Shown piece after piece: positions 185 to 30,182 of a DNA stretch of 64,000 bases. Numbering within the stretch: position 1 is the first letter of the stretch; each line of letters starts with the position of its first letter. Origin of the DNA: Hyphomicrobiales bacterium (GTDB taxonomy: Bacteria > Pseudomonadota > Alphaproteobacteria > Rhizobiales > Rhizobiaceae); NCBI GenBank assembly GCA_030456445.1, contig JAKDNM010000004.1, positions 1 through 64,000 of the forward strand, given 5' to 3'. The notes under the pieces were generated by a model. The model did not search any database, was not told where the DNA came from, and saw nothing but the letters and a program-made list of their open reading frames with translations. The position numbers and the translations under genes are program-made.

Positions 185-1043
185 TTACAGGCCGCACATG
201 TCCTCACATTCATTCGGCCACAGGTCGAGCTGACCGTGGTCGGTCGCGGTCGACAGGTCGACTTCATCGAGAGGGACACCGGATCGATGCAGAAACACCT
301 CACTGCGGATCCCGCGCAGGCCAGCGGATCGCCCGATCCACCTCGACGGCATCGTTCCATGCAGGCAGATCGCGATCCCGCATGTTTCGCCACATGGCGT
401 TGCTGTGGAACGGGCATCCAATGCAGGCGCTCTTCGGTGGATCGGGATAGCCATGGCTTCTGATCCAGTTGAGGCAATCCTGACGGGTCATCCGCTTCTC
501 GATGAGAGGAAACCGGTTGACCTGCCAGGCCTCGCGGCTCGGCTTTATCCGCACCACCTCGTCCATGGAGATGCCCGGCCATTGGATCACAACGGCATGT
601 CTCGGGGACCGCTTGCGGGTGAGGCCCGTCAGTTCGCGCACCTTGCGCCGGATCGGCTCGATCTTGGCGCTGGTGGTGCATTGCCGTCGGATCATACCAA
701 TCGACACATTGCCGCGCCGGTCGACGGTGCGGGTGAAGGCCGGGATTGCGGCCCATCTTTTGCCCTGGCCGGCCGCTAGCAGACTGTCCCGCAGATTCCC
801 GGCCGAGACGACATAGACGGGAAACGGCAACACATTGGGCGACATCAGCCAGCGCAGATGCTCGTAGACGGCGGCCGGCTCCCAGCCTGTATCGGCAAAG
901 ATCGCACAATCCCGGGGGCCGAAATGACCATGTGCGGCCATCAGGGCGAGCGTGGTCGACTGAACGCCTGCACCGAGACTGAGCACGCGAAGCCGGATCG
1001 GGGATGGCGACCTGCCATCCCCTTTGTCGATTGGAGAGAACAT
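185..1043 (-). pseudogene. PP-loop / phosphoadenosine phosphosulfate reductase-like protein, interrupted by a frameshift near 325-335
   Basis: ORF 300..1043(-) has a PP-loop-like SLGAGVQSTTLALMA and ACIGCPFH. Its expected C-terminus (LRGIRSEVFLHRSGVPLDEVDLSTATDHGQLDLWPNECEDMCGL) lies in a different minus-strand frame (ORF 185..454). Confidence 0.75.
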
Positions 1044-1966
1044 CAGGCTGCCTCCGCGATTTCACCGGAGGGCTGGAGGTCATGCAGATAATTGACGGCA
1101 CGCTGGGCATGGGCGGCAGCCTGGAAGATCGCACGGCGATCACCCTGAAGGACGCGCAACCACGATTCCACGTAGGAAGCATGATCAGACCGTGGCTCCA
1201 GCTCCGGCACGATTCCAAGATCGGCGCAGAGGAAGCAGCTTCCGAGTTCGGCAACGAGTTCTTCCCGCGCTCGTTCACTGCGATCCTTCGTATAGCGGCT
1301 GAGATCGCGACCGACACGGTCGGGGCTCGCAGTCCAATGCACCGTTTCGTGGCTGAGGACGGCTACGTAAGATTCAGCGTCGCGGAACGTTTCGAAAGGC
1401 GGCATCTGGATATGGTCGCTCGATGGCGAATAGAATGCCTTCGTGCCGCCATGGCGGATCACTGCACCGGTATTACCGAAGAAGTGGTCGGCATGTTCGA
1501 TCCGCTCGATCGGATCGAGAACCGGCTTCGGTCCATGGTAGTAGTGCTCAGGCAGGCCTTCGATCTGCTCGACGTTGAAAACGCCATAGGCCTTGAGGAA
1601 AGGAATGTCCTTCTCCACCTCGTTGCCGCGGGCATCAGCTTCCTTCTTTGTGAACCGGCTGGCGTAGATCACCGTGGCGCTGGTTTCACCCTTGCGGACA
1701 TGTGCGCCGAGCTCGGTCGCCTGCTTGTATGTCATCCAGATCGGGGCGCAATAACCACGCGCCATGCCTTCCGACCAAAGCAACAGCACGTTCATACCGC
1801 TGTACGGCTCGCCATTATGACGCAGCGGGCGCGTAATGCGGCCTGTCGTATTCGCCGCACTCCAGGGCTGCACCCAGGGCCGCACGCCCTTCTCCAGATC
1901 CGCGACGATGCGGTCGGTGATTTTTGCGTAGAGATCGACGCGGGGTTTGTTTTCTTTCCTGTTCAT
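1043..1966 (-). CDS. ArdC-like antirestriction protein (N-terminal ssDNA-binding-like domain plus zincin-like domain)
   Basis: Begins MNRKENKPRVDLYAKITDRIVADLEKGVRPWVQPWS; contains zincin motif LSHETVHWT (HExxH) and the typical plasmid ArdC layout. Confidence 0.85.
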   Translation of the reverse strand: MNRKENKPRVDLYAKITDRIVADLEKGVRPWVQPWSAANTTGRITRPLRHNGEPYSGMNVLLLWSEGMARGYCAPIWMTYKQATELGAHVRKGETSATVIYASRFTKKEADARGNEVEKDIPFLKAYGVFNVEQIEGLPEHYYHGPKPVLDPIERIEHADHFFGNTGAVIRHGGTKAFYSPSSDHIQMPPFETFRDAESYVAVLSHETVHWTASPDRVGRDLSRYTKDRSERAREELVAELGSCFLCADLGIVPELEPRSDHASYVESWLRVLQGDRRAIFQAAAHAQRAVNYLHDLQPSGEIAEAA

Positions 1967-2239
1967 CTTCTTAAAACTCCATTCTCGAGACCGCGCCGAT
2001 CGCGGCCCCGTCACGGGGTTCTCAAAGGCGGAGCCCAAAGGCCGGCCGCGCACCCTCCAGACATCCATCGCGTCTGTGTGATGGAATGGGTTTCAGGGCC
2101 GGAACGAAGTGGAGGACGGCGAAGCCGTTGCGCGGCTGCCTGGCTCCACCAGGACCACGGACAAAAAGGGGCGCGAGCGGCGGGCATCTGCAAGAAAAAG
2201 GGCGGCGCACAGCGCCGCCAGGTTCATGTCGGAAAGGCC

Positions 2240-5239: not shown

Positions 5240-5827
5240 TCACCCAAGAGCCGCCATCTGGAGGTCTGCTGCCTTTCGGCTGATGGCCTGGCCGGGGTTT
5301 TCGACCTGACGCTCATAGGGCTTCCAGTTCTCACCGACGATGTGCTCGTAGGCCGCGACCGCACCCTCGGCCGCCATGCGCAGGGCGTGTGACTGAAGGG
5401 CCATGTCGGCGGCGAACTCGCGCTTGCGCTGGGCGGTGCTGTCGAAGCCCACCGGACCGTCGAGATCCTCGTCGCGGGTGTCGTTCGCAAGCTTCGCAGT
5501 AGCGTCCTTGGCCTCGGTGACGGCCTTCGAGTAGAACTGGCCCGCTCCGTAGGCGGAGCCGACATAGGAGCCGACGATCCGTTGCAGGTGGATTTGCATG
5601 GCCTTGTCGGAAAGTCCCTCGGAGAGCGTATCGGCGCCTTCGATCAGGCTGCGCTGGTGGAACTCGCGAATACCGTCGCTGTCGAGGACAGGGAGCCCGA
5701 AACTTTCGGAGATGAGGGCGGCCTGGTTGCTGTCCGGGCAGCAGAGCCGGACCATTTCGAGGGTTGTGCCCTTGCGGAGCGGGACGACGCGGGCCTTGGA
5801 TTTGGTGGAGCGGGTTGAACTGGACAT
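5240..5827 (-). CDS. Conserved backbone hypothetical protein
   Basis: Start chosen at MSSSTRSTKSKARVVPLRKGTTLEMVRL because an AAGG ribosome-binding-like site precedes it. Confidence 0.65.
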   Translation of the reverse strand: MSSSTRSTKSKARVVPLRKGTTLEMVRLCCPDSNQAALISESFGLPVLDSDGIREFHQRSLIEGADTLSEGLSDKAMQIHLQRIVGSYVGSAYGAGQFYSKAVTEAKDATAKLANDTRDEDLDGPVGFDSTAQRKREFAADMALQSHALRMAAEGAVAAYEHIVGENWKPYERQVENPGQAISRKAADLQMAALG

Positions 5828-5867: not shown

Positions 5868-6123
5868 CCTTGGCCGTTCTTTCCTGCGGGTGCGGTCAAA
5901 AGGAACCGGCGGAAGCTGGACGCTTCAGGGTCCGGGACCTGCCAGGCGAGCGAGGTCGGCTTGCGGGCAAGCGGGAGCCAGTTCTTTGCTGGTCCCTGCG
6001 CGGGACGCGGGCCTGCCTTGCCGAGATCGGCGGGTACTGGCCGCTCCGCGGCGCGTCAGCGGCCTTGAAGGGGCCGGCCGCCGGTTCAGACCGCAGCAAA
6101 CCCGCCGGGAAGAACGGCCAAGG
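5868..6123 (-). ncRNA. Candidate structured leader RNA (or MITE-like inverted repeat) upstream of 5240..5827
   Basis: 5868-5881 ccttggccgttctt pairs perfectly with 6110-6123 aagaacggccaagg; 5892-5897 with 6089-6094; 5903-5912 gaaccggcgg with 6078-6087 ccgccggttc. Internal hairpins at 5959-5972, 5992-6006 and 6039-6064. Confidence 0.5.
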
Positions 6124-8089: not shown

Positions 8090-9802
8090 CTACTCGGCCG
8101 CCTCGCGGAAGCCCTCGGCGAAATTGTCGCCGTCATGGTCATGCGCCGGCTCGACGATGGCATCGCCGGTGAGGTCATCCTGATGCTCCGCCGCGCCCTC
8201 ATCGTCCGGCTGCTCCGTGACCTCGTTCTTCTTCAGCCACGATGCGAGCTTTTCCGGATCAGGGGCGAACAATGCTGTCGGATGGACGAAACGTCCTTCC
8301 CTGAAATGCTCGACCAGGGCCGCACGCGTGTCCTTCACCCTCTGCCGGGGCAGGACCGACGTATCCTTGCACGAGGCTTCCAGCGCAGGACGCGACAGGC
8401 ACGACAGGAATTCATCCGTACCCATGTTGACCAGGAAGTTGTCCGCGCCAACAACGTCGCCGGCGACACGGGCGACAACGCCGCTGGCCGATCGGTTCTC
8501 GCGGCACGACAGCACATCGATCAGCAGGGACCGTACGGCAACGCGCAGCGTGTCCATGTCGAATTCGAGCTTGCCGTCCTGATCGAACAGGCGCGCGGCG
8601 TGTTCACCGAGGCCGGCGGCTCCGTAATACGAGATGTCGCGTGCGCCGGAGGCGACCGTGACGTTCTGGCCAGCGAAGGCGAGAACGAGCAACGCCATCA
8701 GCGTGTCGTCCTCGATCGGCGCGCGCGACAGTGCCTCGTGCAACGCATCGGTGCGTAGATCGCCGACCATTTCCATGCCCTTGCGCGTGACGTCCGGCCG
8801 TGTGTTGACGACGATCGGCGCATCCTCCCCATCGGCAACCGTCTGCTCGCCGTTCTTGCCCTTGGGCTTCTTCGCCTCGGGCATCCGATAGGCCACCGAC
8901 TGCACCTTGCCCTCACGATCGAGATACATGGCGGTGTGATCGGACTTGGTCGCCTTGCCGTAAACCCGCTCGGCCTTGGGCGGCAGCTTCGGTTCGCCAT
9001 ACTGGCCGGCTTCAACGATTGCGCCACGCTTCGGCAGATGGTTTGACATCCATTCCTGCTGCGCCCCGAGAAACGCCTCGACGTCGGTGGTATAGCGGCT
9101 GTCCTCATCGGCCGGCGCGAACAGATCCTCGACCCAGGCAATGCCGTAAGCCTGCGCCAGATCATCGCCGAAGCTCGCATCGCGGGCATGCATGCGTGTC
9201 TTCTGCAGGCCCTGCGCCACGCTCCACCACGACACCTGCGGATCGGCCTTCGATGGCTTGTGCTTCTTCCAGACCTCTTTCTGCTCATCAAGCGCAGCGG
9301 AAGCGATCGTGCGCAGCTGACCCTCATTGGGCATGTCGCCCTTGGTCATGTGATCGAGCATGGCCGGCAGCACATTGGCCAGAAGCCGCAGCTTCCGGAT
9401 CTGGCGCACCGGCAGAGCCAGAGCAACCGCGATCGCTTCCTCGGTCCAGCCGACCGCGACCAATCGTTCGATCGCCCGCCACTGATCGACGGGATTGAGC
9501 TGCTCATGCGCCAGCGTTTCCGCCAGCGAGCGCATGGCGCCGCCATCCTCGGCACGTTCGGTCACCAGCACGGCGATTTCTTCGAGCCCAGCGGCGATGG
9601 CCTGCTTGACGCGACGATGACCGGCATCGATGACATAGCCGTTGCCACCGTTCATTTCCGACGCAACGACGGGCGGCTGGACGATGCCGACGGTGCGGAT
9701 CGTCGCCAGTAGCAGCGCGTCAGCCTGCGGGCTCGACTTCGAGCGCCGAGCCTTGTCGGGGTTTTCCTTCAGCGCACGCGGATCGATAAACTTCAGTTCC
9801 AT
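8090..9802 (-). CDS. ParB/RepB/Spo0J-like nuclease/partition-family protein
   Basis: N-terminal MELKFIDPRALKENPDKARRS...GYVIDAGHRRVKQAIAAGLEEIAVLV...SLAETLAHEQLNPVDQWRAIERLVAVGWTEEAIA. Confidence 0.85.
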   Translation of the reverse strand: MELKFIDPRALKENPDKARRSKSSPQADALLLATIRTVGIVQPPVVASEMNGGNGYVIDAGHRRVKQAIAAGLEEIAVLVTERAEDGGAMRSLAETLAHEQLNPVDQWRAIERLVAVGWTEEAIAVALALPVRQIRKLRLLANVLPAMLDHMTKGDMPNEGQLRTIASAALDEQKEVWKKHKPSKADPQVSWWSVAQGLQKTRMHARDASFGDDLAQAYGIAWVEDLFAPADEDSRYTTDVEAFLGAQQEWMSNHLPKRGAIVEAGQYGEPKLPPKAERVYGKATKSDHTAMYLDREGKVQSVAYRMPEAKKPKGKNGEQTVADGEDAPIVVNTRPDVTRKGMEMVGDLRTDALHEALSRAPIEDDTLMALLVLAFAGQNVTVASGARDISYYGAAGLGEHAARLFDQDGKLEFDMDTLRVAVRSLLIDVLSCRENRSASGVVARVAGDVVGADNFLVNMGTDEFLSCLSRPALEASCKDTSVLPRQRVKDTRAALVEHFREGRFVHPTALFAPDPEKLASWLKKNEVTEQPDDEGAAEHQDDLTGDAIVEPAHDHDGDNFAEGFREAAE

Positions 9803-10010: not shown

Positions 10011-10461
10011 GCGGTCCGCCCGATCAGCGAGCGGACATTTTCTCCCTCCTTTCATTTTTCTTTTCTTCGCTTATTCGCAGGGGCTGATCCGGGAAAACTG
10101 GTGGGTACATTCCCGGGCGATTGTCTTGCAGATATCAGCGGTAGTTGACACGGCTTTGTCCGCGCTAAATGAAACGCTGGAATGGCCGGAGTTGGGTGGA
10201 AAGGAAACTGTCCGGTTTGTGCCGGATTTTCGAGAAAGCTGACGCTGGGAGCTGATCTCGGCTGTCGCAAAAGGCATCAGCGAAAAGCCAATCTTTGCGC
10301 CCAACTTTTACGACAGAGATTCCCCCTGCCCTTCAGCGTAGGTCTGTTTGTCGTGGAGTTTAGGAGCCACAGAGCTAGTGATCAAAAATTCTTCCCTTCT
10401 CGATCCGTTGTCACCTCCCGGTTCGTCTTTGGTGTGTCTGTATGAAAAAGGAGACACCCTT

Positions 10462-10767
10462 ATGACCACTGAACCTGTCATTCTGATCAATCTGCTGAAG
10501 GTCGAACCGAGCAAGCAGGCTGCGTTGATCGCGCTCTTGAAACACAACATCGAAATCGTAGTAATCACGCTCGGCGGTTGGATAACCAGCCGGCTGATCG
10601 CCGCCAAGGATGGTGCCAGCGTTATTATCTATTCCGAATGGGAGACGCCCGCGGCCGTCGAGGTGATGCGGACCGATCCGCGGATGAAGGCCTATTTTCC
10701 GCAAATACTCGAGCTGGCGAGCTTCGACTCGATCCTGGGCGAGACGATTTTCAGCGACAATCGGTGA
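10462..10767 (+). CDS. Antibiotic biosynthesis monooxygenase (ABM)-like protein
   Basis: MTTEPVILINLLKVEPSKQAALIALLKHNIEIVVITLGGWITSRL...YSEWE; start preceded by aaaaggaga. Confidence 0.75.
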   Translation: MTTEPVILINLLKVEPSKQAALIALLKHNIEIVVITLGGWITSRLIAAKDGASVIIYSEWETPAAVEVMRTDPRMKAYFPQILELASFDSILGETIFSDNR

Positions 10768-10777
10768 GGGCGGAACC

Positions 10778-11563
10778 ATGACCAGAACGGATTTGCAGGG
10801 GTGCCGTATCCTCATCACAGGCGGCAGCGTTGGCCTCGGCCGGGAGATGGCCGAAGCGGCGCTGGCTCGCGGGGCCGAAGTCGCCGTCATCGCCCGAGAT
10901 CGGGCGCGACTGGCGGAGATCGAGCGGCTGGGGGCACGGACATTCGCCGGCGACGCGACTGATGCCGCCTTCATGGCAGCCTCGGTGCGCGAAGCCAAGC
11001 CGGACGTGCTAATCCTCAATGCCGGCGCGCCTCTGGCTATGGGGCCGATCGACGAGCTGGATTTCGTGGCTTTCTCGTCCAGCTGGAATACCGATGTGAA
11101 GGCGGGGCTTGCCGGCATCCAGGCCGCGTTCCACGCGCCGATGACGGCAGGCTCGCGTATCCTGCTCATGTCGAGCGGTGCCGCGATGGTCCTCAGCGCC
11201 GCGCATATCCCCAACCAGAGCCTCTACCTCTCCGGCGGATATGTTGGGGCCAAATACATGCTCTGGTTCATGGCCCACAACGCCAACGCCGTTGCGGAAA
11301 AGCGCGGGCTCGGCCTACATTTCCAAGTACTGGTGCCCACTCAGCTCATGGCGGGAACGGAGTTGGGCCGGAAAGTAGCGGCCGTCTACGCCGATCTCAA
11401 AGGCATCACGCCCGAAACCTATCTGGAAAGCCGCTATGGCCCGCCGCTGACACCGGCCCATCTCGGCAAGCAGGTCGCGGACATTCTCTCCGACCCGCGC
11501 TATCGTTCCGGTGTGGCCTACGGGCTAACGGCCGGAGAAGAACCAATGGGGCTCGACACGTGA
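10778..11563 (+). CDS. Short-chain dehydrogenase/reductase
   Basis: GCRILITGGSVGLGREMAEAALARGAEVAVIARDRARLAEI...VLILNAGAP...YVGAKYML. Confidence 0.88.
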   Translation: MTRTDLQGCRILITGGSVGLGREMAEAALARGAEVAVIARDRARLAEIERLGARTFAGDATDAAFMAASVREAKPDVLILNAGAPLAMGPIDELDFVAFSSSWNTDVKAGLAGIQAAFHAPMTAGSRILLMSSGAAMVLSAAHIPNQSLYLSGGYVGAKYMLWFMAHNANAVAEKRGLGLHFQVLVPTQLMAGTELGRKVAAVYADLKGITPETYLESRYGPPLTPAHLGKQVADILSDPRYRSGVAYGLTAGEEPMGLDT

Positions 11564-12438
11564 ATACGGAGGATTTCGAGAAGCGCCTGGGGGAACTCAG
11601 GCCACGGCTGCACCGCTATTGCGCCCGCATGGTGGGTTCGACCGTGGATGGAGAGGACGTGCTGCAGGATACGTTGATCAAGGCTCTTCGCGCGTGGGAG
11701 GAGGGCACGGCCGTAGAAAATGTTGAAGCCTGGCTGCTTCGCATCGCCCATAATACGAGCCTGGATTTCCTGCGCCGCCGGTCACGGAACAAGGTCGTTC
11801 CACTCACCGATAATCTGGAAGACACGCCGATGCCAGAGGCGGACATCGTCGCGGTCGGCTTCCAGGCGTTCCTGCAATTGCCCGAACTCCAACGTTGCGC
11901 TGTGATCCTCAAGGACGTCCTCGGATACTCGGTCGATGAGATCGCGGCGATCGCCGACTGCACGCCGGCAGCGGCCAAGTCGGCGCTCCAGCGGGGGCGG
12001 GTGGCACTACGGCAATTGGCCCAGATGTCCGATGATACGCGGCTGCCCCTGATGTCGGATGTCGATCGACAGAAGATGACCGCTTACGTCCGCCTGTTCC
12101 AGAGCGGCGACTTCGATGCGATCCGCACCATGCTCGCGTATGACGTGAAGCTCGATCTGGTGAACAGGCTCAAGCTCCAAGGCCGCGAGAGCATCAGCCG
12201 CTACTTCACCCGCTATGCCGAGGAGACGAAGTGGCGTTTCGCCTTCGGAGTGGTCGAAGGGCGTCCGGCGATGTTGGTGTTCGACAATGCCGGTTCGGTG
12301 GAAAGGCCCGCGCATTTCATTCTTCTCGACTGGAGGGAGAGCCGGATCGTCGCGATCCGCGATTTCCTGTTTGCTCCTTATGCGATCGAGGCGGTCGATT
12401 GGGCGCGTCTGGGCGGAACTGGCATGCGTGGACGCTGA
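11560..12438 (+). CDS. ECF-type RNA polymerase sigma factor with C-terminal SnoaL-like domain
   Basis: Sigma region 2/4 motifs (GEDVLQDTLIKALRAW, LQLPELQRCAVILKDVLGYSVDEIAAIADCTPAAAKSALQRGRVALR) plus a ~130-aa C-terminal extension; overlaps the SDR stop. Confidence 0.85.
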   Translation: MNTEDFEKRLGELRPRLHRYCARMVGSTVDGEDVLQDTLIKALRAWEEGTAVENVEAWLLRIAHNTSLDFLRRRSRNKVVPLTDNLEDTPMPEADIVAVGFQAFLQLPELQRCAVILKDVLGYSVDEIAAIADCTPAAAKSALQRGRVALRQLAQMSDDTRLPLMSDVDRQKMTAYVRLFQSGDFDAIRTMLAYDVKLDLVNRLKLQGRESISRYFTRYAEETKWRFAFGVVEGRPAMLVFDNAGSVERPAHFILLDWRESRIVAIRDFLFAPYAIEAVDWARLGGTGMRGR

Positions 12439-12856: not shown

Positions 12857-13207
12857 ATGGGCTTGGTACAATATTCCGACAACGGCTTTTTCGCGCCGCG
12901 TAAAATCGCCGACGCGTTTCAAACCACCAGCGAGGAGGTCGCTCGAACGGCAGGGCTCGGCAGGGATGCCGTTCAGCGCAAGGACCGCGTTCGGTCGGAT
13001 AAGACCCAACGCAGGCTGCGCGAGATGGTTGAGGTGATCAACAAGGTCGAGCCGCGCTTTGGCTCCACCTTGATGGCGTACGCTTGGTACCGGTCCGAAC
13101 CGTTGCCCGGGTTTTCAGGCCAGACGGCCATGCAACTCGTGCGCAACGGCCGCGTGGACGAAGTGCTCGACTATGTCGACGCTGTCGACGCCGGCGTATA
13201 CGCCTGA
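12857..13207 (+). CDS. Xre/MbcA/ParS-type antitoxin
   Basis: Small protein ending TAMQLVRNGRVDEVLDYVDAVDAGVYA, directly upstream of a RES-domain ORF. Confidence 0.8.
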   Translation: MGLVQYSDNGFFAPRKIADAFQTTSEEVARTAGLGRDAVQRKDRVRSDKTQRRLREMVEVINKVEPRFGSTLMAYAWYRSEPLPGFSGQTAMQLVRNGRVDEVLDYVDAVDAGVYA

Positions 13208-13215
13208 CGTGGCAA

Positions 13216-13716
13216 ATGCTTTTTAGCGGCAAGCTCTATCGAGCGCTGAACCCTGTTTACGCACGCGAGCCGCTGTCGGGCCGAGGGGCTCAGCTTTACG
13301 GCGGCCGCTTCAACCGGAAGGGGACGCCGGCTCTCTATATGTCTCTGTCCGTCATGACGGCGTTGCGGGAAGCCAACCAGGTTGGCAACCTTCAGCCAAC
13401 CACGCTCGTCTCTTACGATGCGGAAATCGACGGCATATTCGATTGCCGGGATCAGCTCGCCCTCCAGGCGGAGGGCATGGACGAAGCTGCACTCGCTAAC
13501 GGCATATGGCGCGACCAGATGAAGGCGACCGGAGAAGCAAGAACGCAGGCGCTCGCTCGTAAGCTGATCGCCAGCGGCTATCGCGGCCTGCTGGTGAGGA
13601 GCTTTGCGCCGGGCGCTAACGAGACCGATCTCAATCTTGTGCTTTGGGCATGGAGTGATGCAGCACCCTCACGCCTCATCCTGATCGATGACGAGAACCG
13701 TTTGCAACAGATGTGA
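13216..13716 (+). CDS. RES-domain toxin
   Basis: LYRALNPVYAREPLSGRGAQLYGGRFNRKGTPALYMSLSVMTALREANQ. Confidence 0.85.
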   Translation: MLFSGKLYRALNPVYAREPLSGRGAQLYGGRFNRKGTPALYMSLSVMTALREANQVGNLQPTTLVSYDAEIDGIFDCRDQLALQAEGMDEAALANGIWRDQMKATGEARTQALARKLIASGYRGLLVRSFAPGANETDLNLVLWAWSDAAPSRLILIDDENRLQQM

Positions 13717-17600: not shown

Positions 17601-19783
17601 TCGGCGGCCGGAATCCATGGCGCGCCAAGACGCGCGGTGATGTCGGATGGACGCAGGTCGGCAGGCTGGACCTCGACCAAAGCCCGAACATTGCGCTCGA
17701 ACACAGGATCCAGTGCCGCAGCCGCTTTAGCGGCTTTCAGCTTGTCACGCACCTGACCCGAAAGATAGGCATCCGTGGTCTGCCACGAGCCCGTTTCGGG
17801 ATCGCGGAAGATCGCATCTCCCAATTCGGCGATGACGGTGCCGACATCAGCGTGCAGCAGTTCGGCAATGTGATCGGGGTCGACATGGCCCCGCTCGTTC
17901 AGCACCACGGCGAGCGCGTCGGCGGCGGACGTGATGATCGGCGCCGAAGGTGGTGCAATCACCCGCTCAGTGAAAATCGGGCCGGGCCTGGCGGTATTGG
18001 TGTCAAGGTCATAATCCTCGATCGAAGCAACCAGCCAGCAATCCGGGTCATCGAGGAACGGTTGCAGGTTCGGCCTGCGATGCGTCTCGCGCACCTCTCC
18101 GGTATCAGTATCTTCGCTCGCCGACACGGCGGTAAAATTGATTGGGCCGAACTCGCGCACGAAGTTTGACCAGGCAATGCGCAGCTTCACCTGTGCCGAT
18201 TTCCACGGCCGGTCGAACTCCTGTGCCTTCAAGACCTCGCGCACGGCATCGCGGATCGGGATCAGCTTGCGAATGATCTTCGCGTGCTTCTCCGGCACGC
18301 CATCGCTGCTACGACCCTTACGCAGGGGGACCGTGACAGGAACCGCGTCCACCATCTGCATCAAGGCAGCGTTTTTGGCGACAAAAAAACTGCCCTCGCG
18401 CACGGCAAGTCCGGCGACGTCATGCTCATCGGCGAAGCCGTCAACCTCTCCAGCATAGCGCTCGATCGGCTCGGGCTCGCCGTCATAGAGGGCTTCCGGG
18501 AGGAAGGAGATGGCGACGGCGAGCGTCTGTTCCAGATCGACATCGTCGCGAGGCAGGCAGGTGTAGGTCTCGCCGAAGCGTCCGGAGGTCAGCGCATGCG
18601 TACCAAGCACGAAGTCCGGATGCCGCGCGAACCATCGGTTGACGCGGATTGCGCCCTCATCATCACTCGCCGGCCTAACCTCGTCAGTGTCGAGCCAGGC
18701 CAGATCGCCCTCAGGCTCACTGACCTTGCGCTTGCGGAAAAACAGCACGTCGACCACGACATCCGTGCCCGCATCAGCGCGGAAGCTGCCCTCGGGAAGA
18801 CGAATGGCAGCGATCAGGTCGGCCGTCTTGGCAATATGCTCTCGCACGGAGAAATCGGCTTTATCCATAGTCCCGGAGCTGGTGACGAAGGCGGCCAGCG
18901 CGCCTGGCTTCAGCAGATCGATCGACCGCGCGATGAAATAGTCATGCAGCCTGAAAGATAGGGAGCGATAGGTCCGGTCGGAACGCACCGTGCGATCTGA
19001 GAATGGCGGATTGCCGATGGCGAGGTCGAAGCTCGCCGGCAGCTCGGTGCGGGCGAAGTCGCCAATGACGATGCGCGCCCGTGGCTGCAACAACCGTGCG
19101 ATGCGGGCCGTGACCGGATCGAGTTCGATGCCGGTGACGTGCGACAGATCACGAAGGGTTTCCGGCATCAGTGCTGGAAACAGCCCTGTGCCTATTCCGG
19201 GTTCGAGAACCCGGCCACCCCGCCATCCAAGACGCTGGAGGCCTGACCAGATCGCGCGTATGATGAACTCCGGCGTAAAGTGGGCATATTGGGTGCAGCG
19301 GGCGAGCGAAGCATAATCAATCTTTCCGACGGCGTCCTCCAGATCGGAGCCTATCTCGTCCCAGCCGTTGCGGAAACCGGTCTCGCCAGGACGCCGGAAG
19401 ACGCCATTGGCGAGATCGGATGCGCCGAAACCGGTGAACCGGATCACACGCTCCTGCTCCTCGCGCGTGGCCGGACGCTCATCGGCCTCGATCTTGGCCG
19501 CAAGCCGGATTGCGGCGATATTGTCACGCGCACGCTCCTTCCAGCCGCGTGCGAGACCACGGTCATCGGCGAGATAGAAGTTCGAACCGCGCGTGCGGCC
19601 CGACGTTGATGGCGCGCGCATGATTACCGAACCAGCCATTGCCGGCGTCGGTGAATATGGATCTGGATCGTCGTCTTCGGCGGGCTCGAAACTGCTTCCG
19701 AAGGCCGTCACACCGAGGCCGAGGCCAGACGAAAGCGCGGTGTTACCGAAAAGATCGATGGTGAAAGGGTCGTCATGAGACAT
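14690..19783 (-). CDS. Giant SAM-dependent DNA methyltransferase - SF2 helicase fusion
   Basis: 1697 aa; VLEPGIGTGLFPALMP, AIGNPPFSD (NPPF), AHAVGAGKTMTIAAAIM (Walker A), IIVDEAQEFRKL, LASGTPITNTL, IEQREGRILRQGN. Confidence 0.9.
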   Translation of the reverse strand: MSHDDPFTIDLFGNTALSSGLGLGVTAFGSSFEPAEDDDPDPYSPTPAMAGSVIMRAPSTSGRTRGSNFYLADDRGLARGWKERARDNIAAIRLAAKIEADERPATREEQERVIRFTGFGASDLANGVFRRPGETGFRNGWDEIGSDLEDAVGKIDYASLARCTQYAHFTPEFIIRAIWSGLQRLGWRGGRVLEPGIGTGLFPALMPETLRDLSHVTGIELDPVTARIARLLQPRARIVIGDFARTELPASFDLAIGNPPFSDRTVRSDRTYRSLSFRLHDYFIARSIDLLKPGALAAFVTSSGTMDKADFSVREHIAKTADLIAAIRLPEGSFRADAGTDVVVDVLFFRKRKVSEPEGDLAWLDTDEVRPASDDEGAIRVNRWFARHPDFVLGTHALTSGRFGETYTCLPRDDVDLEQTLAVAISFLPEALYDGEPEPIERYAGEVDGFADEHDVAGLAVREGSFFVAKNAALMQMVDAVPVTVPLRKGRSSDGVPEKHAKIIRKLIPIRDAVREVLKAQEFDRPWKSAQVKLRIAWSNFVREFGPINFTAVSASEDTDTGEVRETHRRPNLQPFLDDPDCWLVASIEDYDLDTNTARPGPIFTERVIAPPSAPIITSAADALAVVLNERGHVDPDHIAELLHADVGTVIAELGDAIFRDPETGSWQTTDAYLSGQVRDKLKAAKAAAALDPVFERNVRALVEVQPADLRPSDITARLGAPWIPAADVVAFVHETMGAEIKIHHMPELASWTVEARQLGWTAAGTSEWGTDRRHAGELIADALNSRVPQIFDTIKDGDSEKRVLNVVDTEAAKEKLQKIKTAFQSWIWSDPDRTDRLARVYNDRFNNIAPRKFNGDHLQLPGACSALSLYGHQKRGIWRIISAGSTYLAHAVGAGKTMTIAAAIMEQRRLGLIAKAMLVVPGHCLAQAAREFLALYPTARILVADETNFSKDKRHRFLSRAATATWDAIIITHSAFRFIGVPSTFEQQMIHDELELYETLLTKVESDDRVSRKRLERLKEGLRERLENLATRKDELLTISEIGVDQIIVDEAQEFRKLSFATNMSTLKGVDPNGSQRAWDLYVKSRFVETKNPGRALVLASGTPITNTLGEMFSVQRYLGYEALSERGLHEFDAWASTFGDVTTELELQPSGKYKPVTRFATFVNVPELIAMFRSFADVVMPEDLREYVKVPALSTGTRQIITAKPSAAFKRYQMVLDARIKAIEERDRPPEPGDDILLSVITDGRHAAIDLRLVDSDNDDEPDNKLNDLVSNAYRIWRETAESNFVRTDGKPFELPGAAQMIFSDLGTLSVEKSRGFSAYRWIRDELVRMGVPMSEIAFMQDFKKSDAKQRLFGDVRAGKVRFLIGSSDTMGTGVNAQLRLKALHHLDVPWLPSQIEQREGRILRQGNQHDVIDIFAYATEGSMDAQMWQNNERKARFIAAALSGDTSIRRLEDMGEGQASQFAMAKAIASGDPRLMQKAGLEADIARLERLRAAHMDDQHAIRRQIRDAERDIEYSTRRVGEVGQDIERLVPTSGTAFIMVVGDDTVTGRKIAGRALMKEILTLVQLQQDGESIIASIGGFDLEFFGERFGKDGYRYSTMLMRTGATHEIELPVTTTPLGAIARLEHALAGFEDEQERYRHRLADAGKRLVSYRSRQGGEFGFAGELADKREQLNAIEVNLAASTEDQEERAAA

Positions 19784-28270: not shown

Positions 28271-28955
28271 ACCGCTATGCGGATCAGGCAAGCCGCTCCA
28301 CCTTCATCGCCCCCCCGCACGGCCGGATCGGCCTGCTCCGCTGCTCGAAACGAGCGATCCCAGTCAGATCTGTGCCCAACCGAGCGCATGTCGCGCCTGA
28401 TGGCTCATTTTCATTCTACTCAAGTTGGGCTCAAATGATGCAAATACATCTCCTTGTGCCCGAATGACGCAATGTATCGATGCTAAGGCAGCGCGAGGGG
28501 CTGGCATCAAACCGGCCCGGCCCACTTGCTCAGCGTGCATTCAGCCGTACCTAAGCCATGCAGCCGCCGGAGACCGCCGGCGCGCCGACTGAGGATGACG
28601 ACATAAATGGGATCACCGACTATCTAGCTGCGTAGGGAGTGCTTCTTTGGAAGCGAACGCAAATTGTCCCTGCCTGTTTCCAGCACGAGACAGGGGCGCG
28701 AAAGAATTGCTCTCCTTCGATCGTCATGGACGCATTTTTGCTCCGGTTCATGGTTCGTTCAGCAGTTGTATCGACAGCGAGGGTGGACACGCTGTTTCCG
28801 AGTGCCTATATGACGGACTTAGCAATAAGTGCTAGGGGCTGATCCTTGTGGCACTCGCTATTCATTCCAGCCATCCTAGGAATGGATATAAATTTTCTTG
28901 AAACAAAGGAGAGATTATCTGCCGGCCGAGGCAGGATATAATCTTTTATGAATCA

Positions 28956-30182
28956 TTGATTGATAAGAATAATATTAATGATGCCACAAACGGTGTCAAA
29001 GTCAGACTGAAAAACACATATAAGGTGTTCGGAGAACATCCCGAGCGCGCATTGCAAATGGCGCATGCGGGCAAGAGCAAGTCCGAAATTCACACGTCCA
29101 CCGGTTGTACGATCGGTGTCGACGATGCAAGCTTCGACATCATGGACGGCGAGACGTTCGTCATCATGGGGCTGTCCGGCTCGGGCAAGTCGACGTTGCT
29201 TCGCCTTCTCAATCGTCTGATCGAACCGACCTCAGGCTCGATCGAGATCGATGGCCGCGACATCACGAAAATGTCAAAGCGCGAGCTGATCGAGTTGCGT
29301 CGGCGCGACATGAGCATGGTGTTCCAGTCTTTCGCGCTGCTGCCCAATCGCAATGTCTTGAACAATGCCGCTTTTGGGCTGGAGATCTCGGGTGTCGGCG
29401 AGGTGGAGCGCACCAAAAAGGCGCTTGCAGCACTCGATGCGGTCGGCCTCAAGGACAATGCCTACAGCATGCCCGATGAGCTATCGGGCGGCATGAAACA
29501 ACGTGTGGGTCTGGCACGGGCGCTCGCCAGCGAGCCAACCATCCTGCTCATGGACGAGGCCTTTTCCGCGCTTGATCCGCTTATCCGCACCGAGATGCAG
29601 GATGAGTTGATGCGCTTGCAAAGCGAGCACAGCCGCACGGTCATTTTCGTCAGCCACGACCTCGACGAGGCGATGCGTATCGGCGACCGCATCTGCATCA
29701 TGCAGCATGGCAAGGTCGTACAGGTCGGGACGCCGGACGAGATCGTCTCGAAGCCTGCAAACAGCTATGTGCGGTCCTTCTTCCGCAATGTGGATGTCTC
29801 GCAGGTGTTCAAGGCCGGTGACATCGCACGCAAGACGCAACTCACCATCATCGATCGGCCGGGCGTCTCTGTGGCGGCCACGCTGGAGCAAATGGAGCAG
29901 TCAGGCCGGGACGTGGCAATCGTCGTCGGTCGCGGCCGGAAGTATCATGGCATGGTTAGCCAGGATGCGCTCATTGAGCAGGTCAAGGCCAGGGTTGCAG
30001 AGCCTTATCGCAGCGCCTTCCTTCGGGATGTCCAGCCGATAGCGGCTGATGAATCCGTATCGAACGTGTTGGGCCGTGTGGCCGAGAGCCGGTGGCCGGT
30101 CCCCGTCGTCGATGAGCTGGGCCGCTATGTTGGCGCGATCAGCAAGTCGTCACTTCTGGAAACGCTCAACCGAGCCGGTTGA
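28956..30182 (+). CDS. proV: Glycine betaine/proline ABC transporter ATP-binding protein (TTG start likely)
   Basis: Walker A GLSGSGKST, LSGGMKQRVGLARALA, C-terminal CBS-like region; followed by permease and binding-protein genes. Confidence 0.9.
   Translation: MIDKNNINDATNGVKVRLKNTYKVFGEHPERALQMAHAGKSKSEIHTSTGCTIGVDDASFDIMDGETFVIMGLSGSGKSTLLRLLNRLIEPTSGSIEIDGRDITKMSKRELIELRRRDMSMVFQSFALLPNRNVLNNAAFGLEISGVGEVERTKKALAALDAVGLKDNAYSMPDELSGGMKQRVGLARALASEPTILLMDEAFSALDPLIRTEMQDELMRLQSEHSRTVIFVSHDLDEAMRIGDRICIMQHGKVVQVGTPDEIVSKPANSYVRSFFRNVDVSQVFKAGDIARKTQLTIIDRPGVSVAATLEQMEQSGRDVAIVVGRGRKYHGMVSQDALIEQVKARVAEPYRSAFLRDVQPIAADESVSNVLGRVAESRWPVPVVDELGRYVGAISKSSLLETLNRAG

Follow-up and report, generated by a model that had tools for sequence, protein, structure and literature searches.

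A conserved hairpin on the transferred strand of Ti and rhizobial-type plasmids: a candidate single-stranded-DNA promoter in the leading region

Background

Why should a long inverted repeat lie directly in front of one gene of a plasmid backbone? This question is raised by a stretch of DNA of 64,000 nucleotides from a Hyphomicrobiales bacterium (hereafter, the window), in which such a repeat precedes the gene at 5240-5827(-), designated gene X. An earlier note, made from the sequence alone, had offered two answers: a structured cis-regulatory RNA or a MITE.

Most of what is known of single-stranded-DNA promoters comes from enterobacterial plasmids, such as F and ColIb-P9, and the later surveys of these promoters were mainly similarity searches against the enterobacterial ones. 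Frpo of plasmid F and ssi sequences were reportedly treated by Masai and Arai in 1997. Frpo1 and Frpo2 form stem-loops, and early expression of the downstream genes in the recipient depends on them (PMC9849209). Frpo-like promoters have also been reported together with antidefence genes that the T-strand encodes; the relatives in that survey were found by BLAST, and its main text does not name rhizobial or Agrobacterium plasmids (PMC11541004).

In this study, we examined the fold, the conservation, and the genetic context of the element upstream of gene X. We found a fold on the transferred strand that always precedes the same early-entry gene, and, judged from sequence comparisons, it is probably a single-stranded-DNA promoter.

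Methods

Alignment A1 comprised 48 homologous sequences in the T-strand sense and 103 base pairs. Transfer polarity was studied in six relatives with oriT in view: pTiC58, pXAUT01, pHCG3, pUSP3, Rhizobium gallicum pRgalIE4872a, and pSinA. The search for gene X in GTDB genomes gave 417 encoding stretches, of which the best 80 were kept.

Results and discussion

The element and its fold

The repeats described in the earlier note are all present in the sequence: the terminal pair ccttggccgttctt (5868-5881) and aagaacggccaagg (6110-6123), gcggtc (5892-5897) with gaccgc (6089-6094), gaaccggcgg with ccgccggttc, cttcaggg (5923-5930) with ccttgaag (6063-6070), and the local hairpins. Its gap of about 40 nt between the element and the gene was also correct, the start codon (5825-5827, - strand) being 40 nt off. 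The inverted repeat at 5868-6123 is far above chance. In single-strand folding, the + strand reached -178.8 kcal/mol (z -7.9) and the - strand -145.7 kcal/mol (z -5.0), with no equally good shuffle for either. The structure thus favours the strand opposite to gene X, a point that had been missed. An Rfam scan of the window, proposed earlier as a check, gave nothing at the gathering score and nothing credible at E<=1 (best sub-threshold match, E 0.34). The parts of the element and the genes around it are listed in Table 1.

Table 1. Features of the element and its surroundings (window positions, unless a locus is named)
Feature	Position	Strand	Basis or remark
Gene X, 195 aa, predicted all-helical	5240..5827	-	Element upstream in every close homologue examined
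ArdC antirestriction protein, next conserved leading-region gene	1043..2068	-	ArdcN 7.6e-42; MPTase-PolyVal 4.4e-49
ParB-like plasmid partitioning protein, oriT-distal neighbour	8090..9802	-	NF010406 5.4e-288
Whole element, long branched hairpin on the putative T-strand	5868..6123	+	Fold, covariation, strand stability
5' arm of base stem; template strand of the putative folded promoter, reading into gene 5827(-)	5868..5897	+	
AAAAG side of internal loop facing the -10-like site; varies in homologues	5898..5902	+	Fold; alignment A1 columns 47-52
CTTCAGGG, paired with CCTTGAAG via conserved G-T wobble	5923..5930	+	Alignment A1
Arm A, variable hairpin; missing from short copy G000:C145	5931..6038	+	
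Arm B, small hairpin GGCCGCtccGCGGCGCG..AGCGGCC, sequence-conserved	6039..6064	+	
TTGAAG, -35-like site, 3' (non-template) arm	6065..6070	+	A1 conservation
CAGACC (consensus YANGAC), -10-like position at internal loop	6087..6092	+	Fixed spacing from TTG
A-rich bulge AGCAA, putative approximate transcription start	6095..6099	+	Unpaired in fold; bulge conserved in A1
Second hairpin, locus L015	about 28900-29095		
Second hairpin, locus L017	34750-34995		
Second hairpin, locus L020	25000-25189		
Second hairpin, locus L023	23150-23349		
Second hairpin, locus L024	about 18800-19011		

Covariation and the selected strand

The element folds as a single strand, and the covariation test that the earlier note had called for was strongly positive. 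Both-side changes occurred in 57 of the 103 pairs of A1, pairs were formed in 88.7% of cells, and 334 cells carried double changes as against 105 in shuffles, none of 500 shuffles matching the alignment; the signal was destroyed when pair partners were slid by one to three columns. The 5' arm pairs with 6089-6123, and this helix 1 has both-side changes in 14 of 23 pairs. Covariation is strong in Arm A (for example, columns 109-177 are A-T in 25 sequences and G-C in 20), and Arm B (columns 201-223) is mostly over 85% identical. The wobble between CTTCAGGG and CCTTGAAG (columns 81-227) is G-T in 38 of 48 sequences and A-T in 7.

The T sense was stabler than its complement in 20 of 21 homologues of a first set and, among 39 diverse homologues, in all with RNA parameters and in 38 with DNA parameters. 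The homologues all go back to a single locus, so that their orientation and strand preference cannot be counted as independent evidence. The long stem-loop is one formed by the transferred strand. A short copy in the same genome (on contig C145) showed no strand preference. At strand-neutral pairs, G-T was found 134 times versus 66 for A-C (33 sequences versus 6), and five column pairs of A1 are G-T in most sequences.

These observations bear on the proposal of a cis-regulatory leader in the mRNA of 5240-5827. Such a leader would sit directly upstream of the gene, as the element does, and the - strand folds too (z -5.0); however, of the two strands, the mRNA sense is the less stable in all 39 diverse homologues and bears A-C mismatches where the T-strand has G-T pairs. 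A riboswitch would have its structure selected on the mRNA strand, whereas the strand under structural selection here is the complement of the mRNA. We therefore regard a leader RNA as highly improbable.

Distribution and linkage to gene X

By blastn, the element was found on 471 PLSDB plasmids at 487 places. These plasmids, 354 of which are typed as conjugative, are mostly from Agrobacterium, Rhizobium, Bradyrhizobium, Sinorhizobium, and Mesorhizobium, and the locus was the same wherever examined; in pTiC58, it is at 130166-130412. A search of phage records did not find the element. The element stands directly upstream of gene X in all 116 close homologues with enough upstream DNA, at a distance of 37-54 nt in annotated examples. 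The earlier note was right in describing a structured element ahead of a backbone gene.

The terminal inverted repeats could suggest a MITE or another mobile repeat, as the earlier note had considered. The genome of the window contains only one other copy (162 nt, without the variable arm), which lies before a gene X paralogue. Both places thus precede the same gene family, whereas a MITE would leave dispersed copies at unrelated sites, and the 487 places are spread over 471 plasmids. Because of this linkage to one gene instead of dispersal, a mobile repeat is hardly conceivable.

Gene X itself had no family match in Pfam, NCBIfam, or PADLOC; its AlphaFold model is helical (pLDDT 80.9) and had no PDB match at E<=0.001. 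For the distant relatives of gene X in Roseomonas (L124) and Komagataeibacter (L125), sequence searches did not detect the element upstream, nor could a comparable hairpin be established there. The Methylosinus relative (L123, 50% protein identity) has a longer hairpin upstream; its base stem is similar and its interior unrelated, and its T sense gave -133.8 versus -115.3 kcal/mol with DNA parameters.

Position of the element relative to oriT

The six relatives share the order ParB-like gene and small genes, element, gene X, ArdC, DUF736, traG-traD-traC, oriT, and traA, with the exception that no ParB adjoins in R. gallicum; other genes are inserted at places among the six. In all six, a nick-like motif (TATAATTGCG/CCCT and variants; TTGCG/CCCT or CTGCG/CCCT) lies between traC and traA, and the strand that carries it is the complement of gene X. 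In nicking of the RSF1010/Ti type, the 5' end CCCT leads into transfer; thus, transfer would proceed from oriT through traC-D-G, ArdC, and gene X to the element. In these relatives, the element therefore belongs to the leading region, and the T-strand serves as template for the genes downstream of it. In the window, the T-strand, as the template of ArdC and gene X, would be the + strand. ArdC of R388 is needed in the recipient (PMC7213743).

The contig of the window starts at window position 1, short of oriT. Another contig of the same genome, C148, carries traA, oriT, traC-D-G, the small gene, and DUF736 in the same oriT arrangement as in the relatives, and where it ends, distal to oriT, it could continue into the left end of the window's contig. 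We infer that the two contigs join and that the oriT of the window lies to its left. On contigs C148, C220, and C223, this genome has several TraA-type relaxases and at least two leading regions, which suggests that it probably contains several conjugative plasmids or integrated elements.

Promoter-like anatomy

The 3' arm would be the non-template strand for gene X. In it, TTG is invariant in the 48 sequences, the next A is present in 47, and the following A in 46. The spacing of TTGAA-16-YANGAC is fixed in 48 of 48; the opposite arm has 26, 27, or 28 nt. YANGAC is located at the internal loop and is followed by the A-rich bulge. The TTGAA site agrees with TTGACA at only four of six positions, and no canonical (TATAAT-like) -10 was found in the folded duplex, the homologues having YANGAC and the window CAGACC. 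A sigma-70 scan of the folded arms gave a mean z of 1.6; since the same scan also misses the control, Frpo2 of F, it is uninformative either way, and support for reading the element as a promoter comes from conservation and geometry, not from consensus. In duplex DNA near the element, neither strand had a consensus promoter match. No terminator was found 3' of the element, and the single terminator-like match at its 5' edge is within chance.

Taken together, the single-strand fold, the strand preference, the linkage to one gene, the fixed promoter-like spacing, and the position and polarity in relatives make an Frpo-like single-stranded-DNA promoter, located in the leading region of conjugative plasmids of the Ti/rhizobial type, the best-supported reading, and we hold it, as a candidate, with moderate confidence.

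Three other readings were considered. The first is that the + strand is transcribed into a structured non-coding RNA, such as a regulator carried by the plasmid. The covariation and the preference for G-T (G-U) pairs fit such an RNA, of which the conserved wobbles would be equally expected, and in size, branching, and covariation the element resembles the large bacterial non-coding RNAs of Rfam. However, it has no Rfam family and neither a promoter-like match nearby nor a terminator after it, and a transcript would leave the leading-region placement, the short spacing to one gene, and the fixed spacing on one arm unexplained; strand, position, and spacing point instead to the T-strand. A C58 RNA of similar length, pAT_157836F (248 nt, northern-validated, PMC3738593), was considered as the transcript of the element and proved unrelated, no copy of the element being present at that locus. 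In their accessible parts, the C58 transcriptome papers give no coordinates for the element locus. We consider this RNA unlikely.

Secondly, the element could be an initiation site of the ssi/sso type, which mainly primes the second strand (by RNA polymerase or primase) and is not the promoter of the gene. The strand and position evidence is common to both readings, and Frpo itself primes DNA synthesis in vitro (reviewed in PMC7690428), whereas the strict placement just before one start codon in 116 of 116 homologues points to gene expression and makes a pure initiation site rather improbable. Thirdly, proteins could bind the DNA as a hairpin or cruciform for some other purpose, such as a transfer checkpoint, a restriction decoy, or a partition site. 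This reading would agree with the sequence conservation of Arm B and with the ParB-like gene nearby; it would predict neither the T-strand preference nor the tight gene spacing and is very unlikely.

A possible mechanism

As a single-stranded-DNA promoter, the element would work as follows. The plasmid enters the recipient as a single-stranded T-strand (the + strand of the window), and the element folds into the long hairpin. The base stem would then provide a duplex for RNA polymerase, with the -35-like TTGAA, the -10-like YANGAC 16 nt on, and the A-rich bulge. From there, RNA polymerase would copy the T-strand toward its 5' end, via the stem base into gene 5827(-), giving a transcript that would start near window position 5890, with a predicted 5' UTR of about 60 nt; transcription may extend to further leading-region genes, ahead of second-strand synthesis. 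Conversion to duplex would remove the hairpin and turn the promoter off, and RNA from the element may, in addition, serve as a primer for the second strand. The binding of the polymerase, transcription, the start site, and the switching off are all predictions from the fold and its conservation.

Comparison with known systems

In plasmid F, the region upstream of ssb (Frpo2) gave -108.4 kcal/mol for the T-strand versus -100.2 for its complement, and the stem begins about 45 nt before the ssb start codon. Like Frpo1 and Frpo2, the element is a long T-strand hairpin of the leading region that is stabler than its complement, and it lies at a similar distance (about 45 nt in F) upstream of an early gene, with T-strand-templated genes and an antirestriction gene nearby. 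Unlike the Frpo sequences of enterobacterial MOBF plasmids, it occurs on alphaproteobacterial, mostly MOBQ/MPF_T plasmids, has a GC-rich branched interior, and has neither a recognised sequence relation to Frpo (the two were compared by geometry and published description) nor a canonical -10. We treat the candidate as a sequence family separate from Frpo and, given the non-canonical -10 and an activity that is a prediction, do not claim membership in the known Frpo/ssi family.

The sso of rolling-circle plasmids (reviewed in PMC7690428) offers another comparison. Such origins are hairpins that are active only as single-stranded DNA and are read by RNA polymerase, as is proposed here for the element; unlike sso, the element is on a non-rolling-circle replicon and is placed before a coding gene.

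If the reading is correct, the mechanism of single-stranded-DNA promoters would hold for Ti, Ri, and symbiosis plasmids in agrobacteria and rhizobia as well, the timely expression of antirestriction and unknown establishment genes would be explained, and covariation would offer a way to find such promoters where sequence similarity fails. The conserved gene X would be a likely early-establishment factor.

Other hairpins and neighbouring genes

A second T-strand hairpin, unrelated in sequence, precedes a small gene nearer oriT in pTiC58, pXAUT01, pHCG3, pSinA, and a Shinella plasmid. The small gene (about 50 aa, with the motif IEELRAEL) is located between DUF736 and traG. With DNA parameters, the T sense of this hairpin is again the stabler (for example, -106.0 versus -85.9 in L020), and a TTGA-like sequence occurs on the 3' arm in most of the five loci. 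Contig C148 had no clear counterpart. A set of hairpins that share the strand but not the sequence, and that each stand in front of a leading-region gene, is more readily explained by single-stranded-DNA promoters than by a single family of RNA. We tentatively propose, with somewhat less than even confidence, that Ti, Ri, and symbiosis plasmids have a T-strand programme of two or three unrelated hairpins, each before a different leading-region gene. From these, early genes (the unknown all-helical protein, ArdC, and the small protein) would be fired on single-stranded DNA by promoters that combine a duplex resembling a -35 with a non-canonical -10 that is already melted.

Upstream of ArdC is a third stretch that is conserved and structured (20884-21194 in L015 and equivalents; in the window, from about 2069 upward). 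In most plasmids, either strand gives a z of about -4 to -5.6, with no clear strand preference.

The gene after ArdC (window 215-1046, - strand) is SspD-like (PADLOC, 7.4e-6); its match to the pTiC58 relative extends over two reading frames, suggestive of a frameshift or a sequencing error. On the other side, an operon-like set at 10348-12438 (+) encodes an ABM-domain monooxygenase, a short-chain dehydrogenase, and a sigma-70-family factor with a SnoaL-like domain, and the region at 12857-13716 (+) encodes a pair of an Xre/MbcA/ParS antitoxin and a RES-domain toxin. RES pairs near the ParB-like gene are also present in pXAUT01 and pHCG3.
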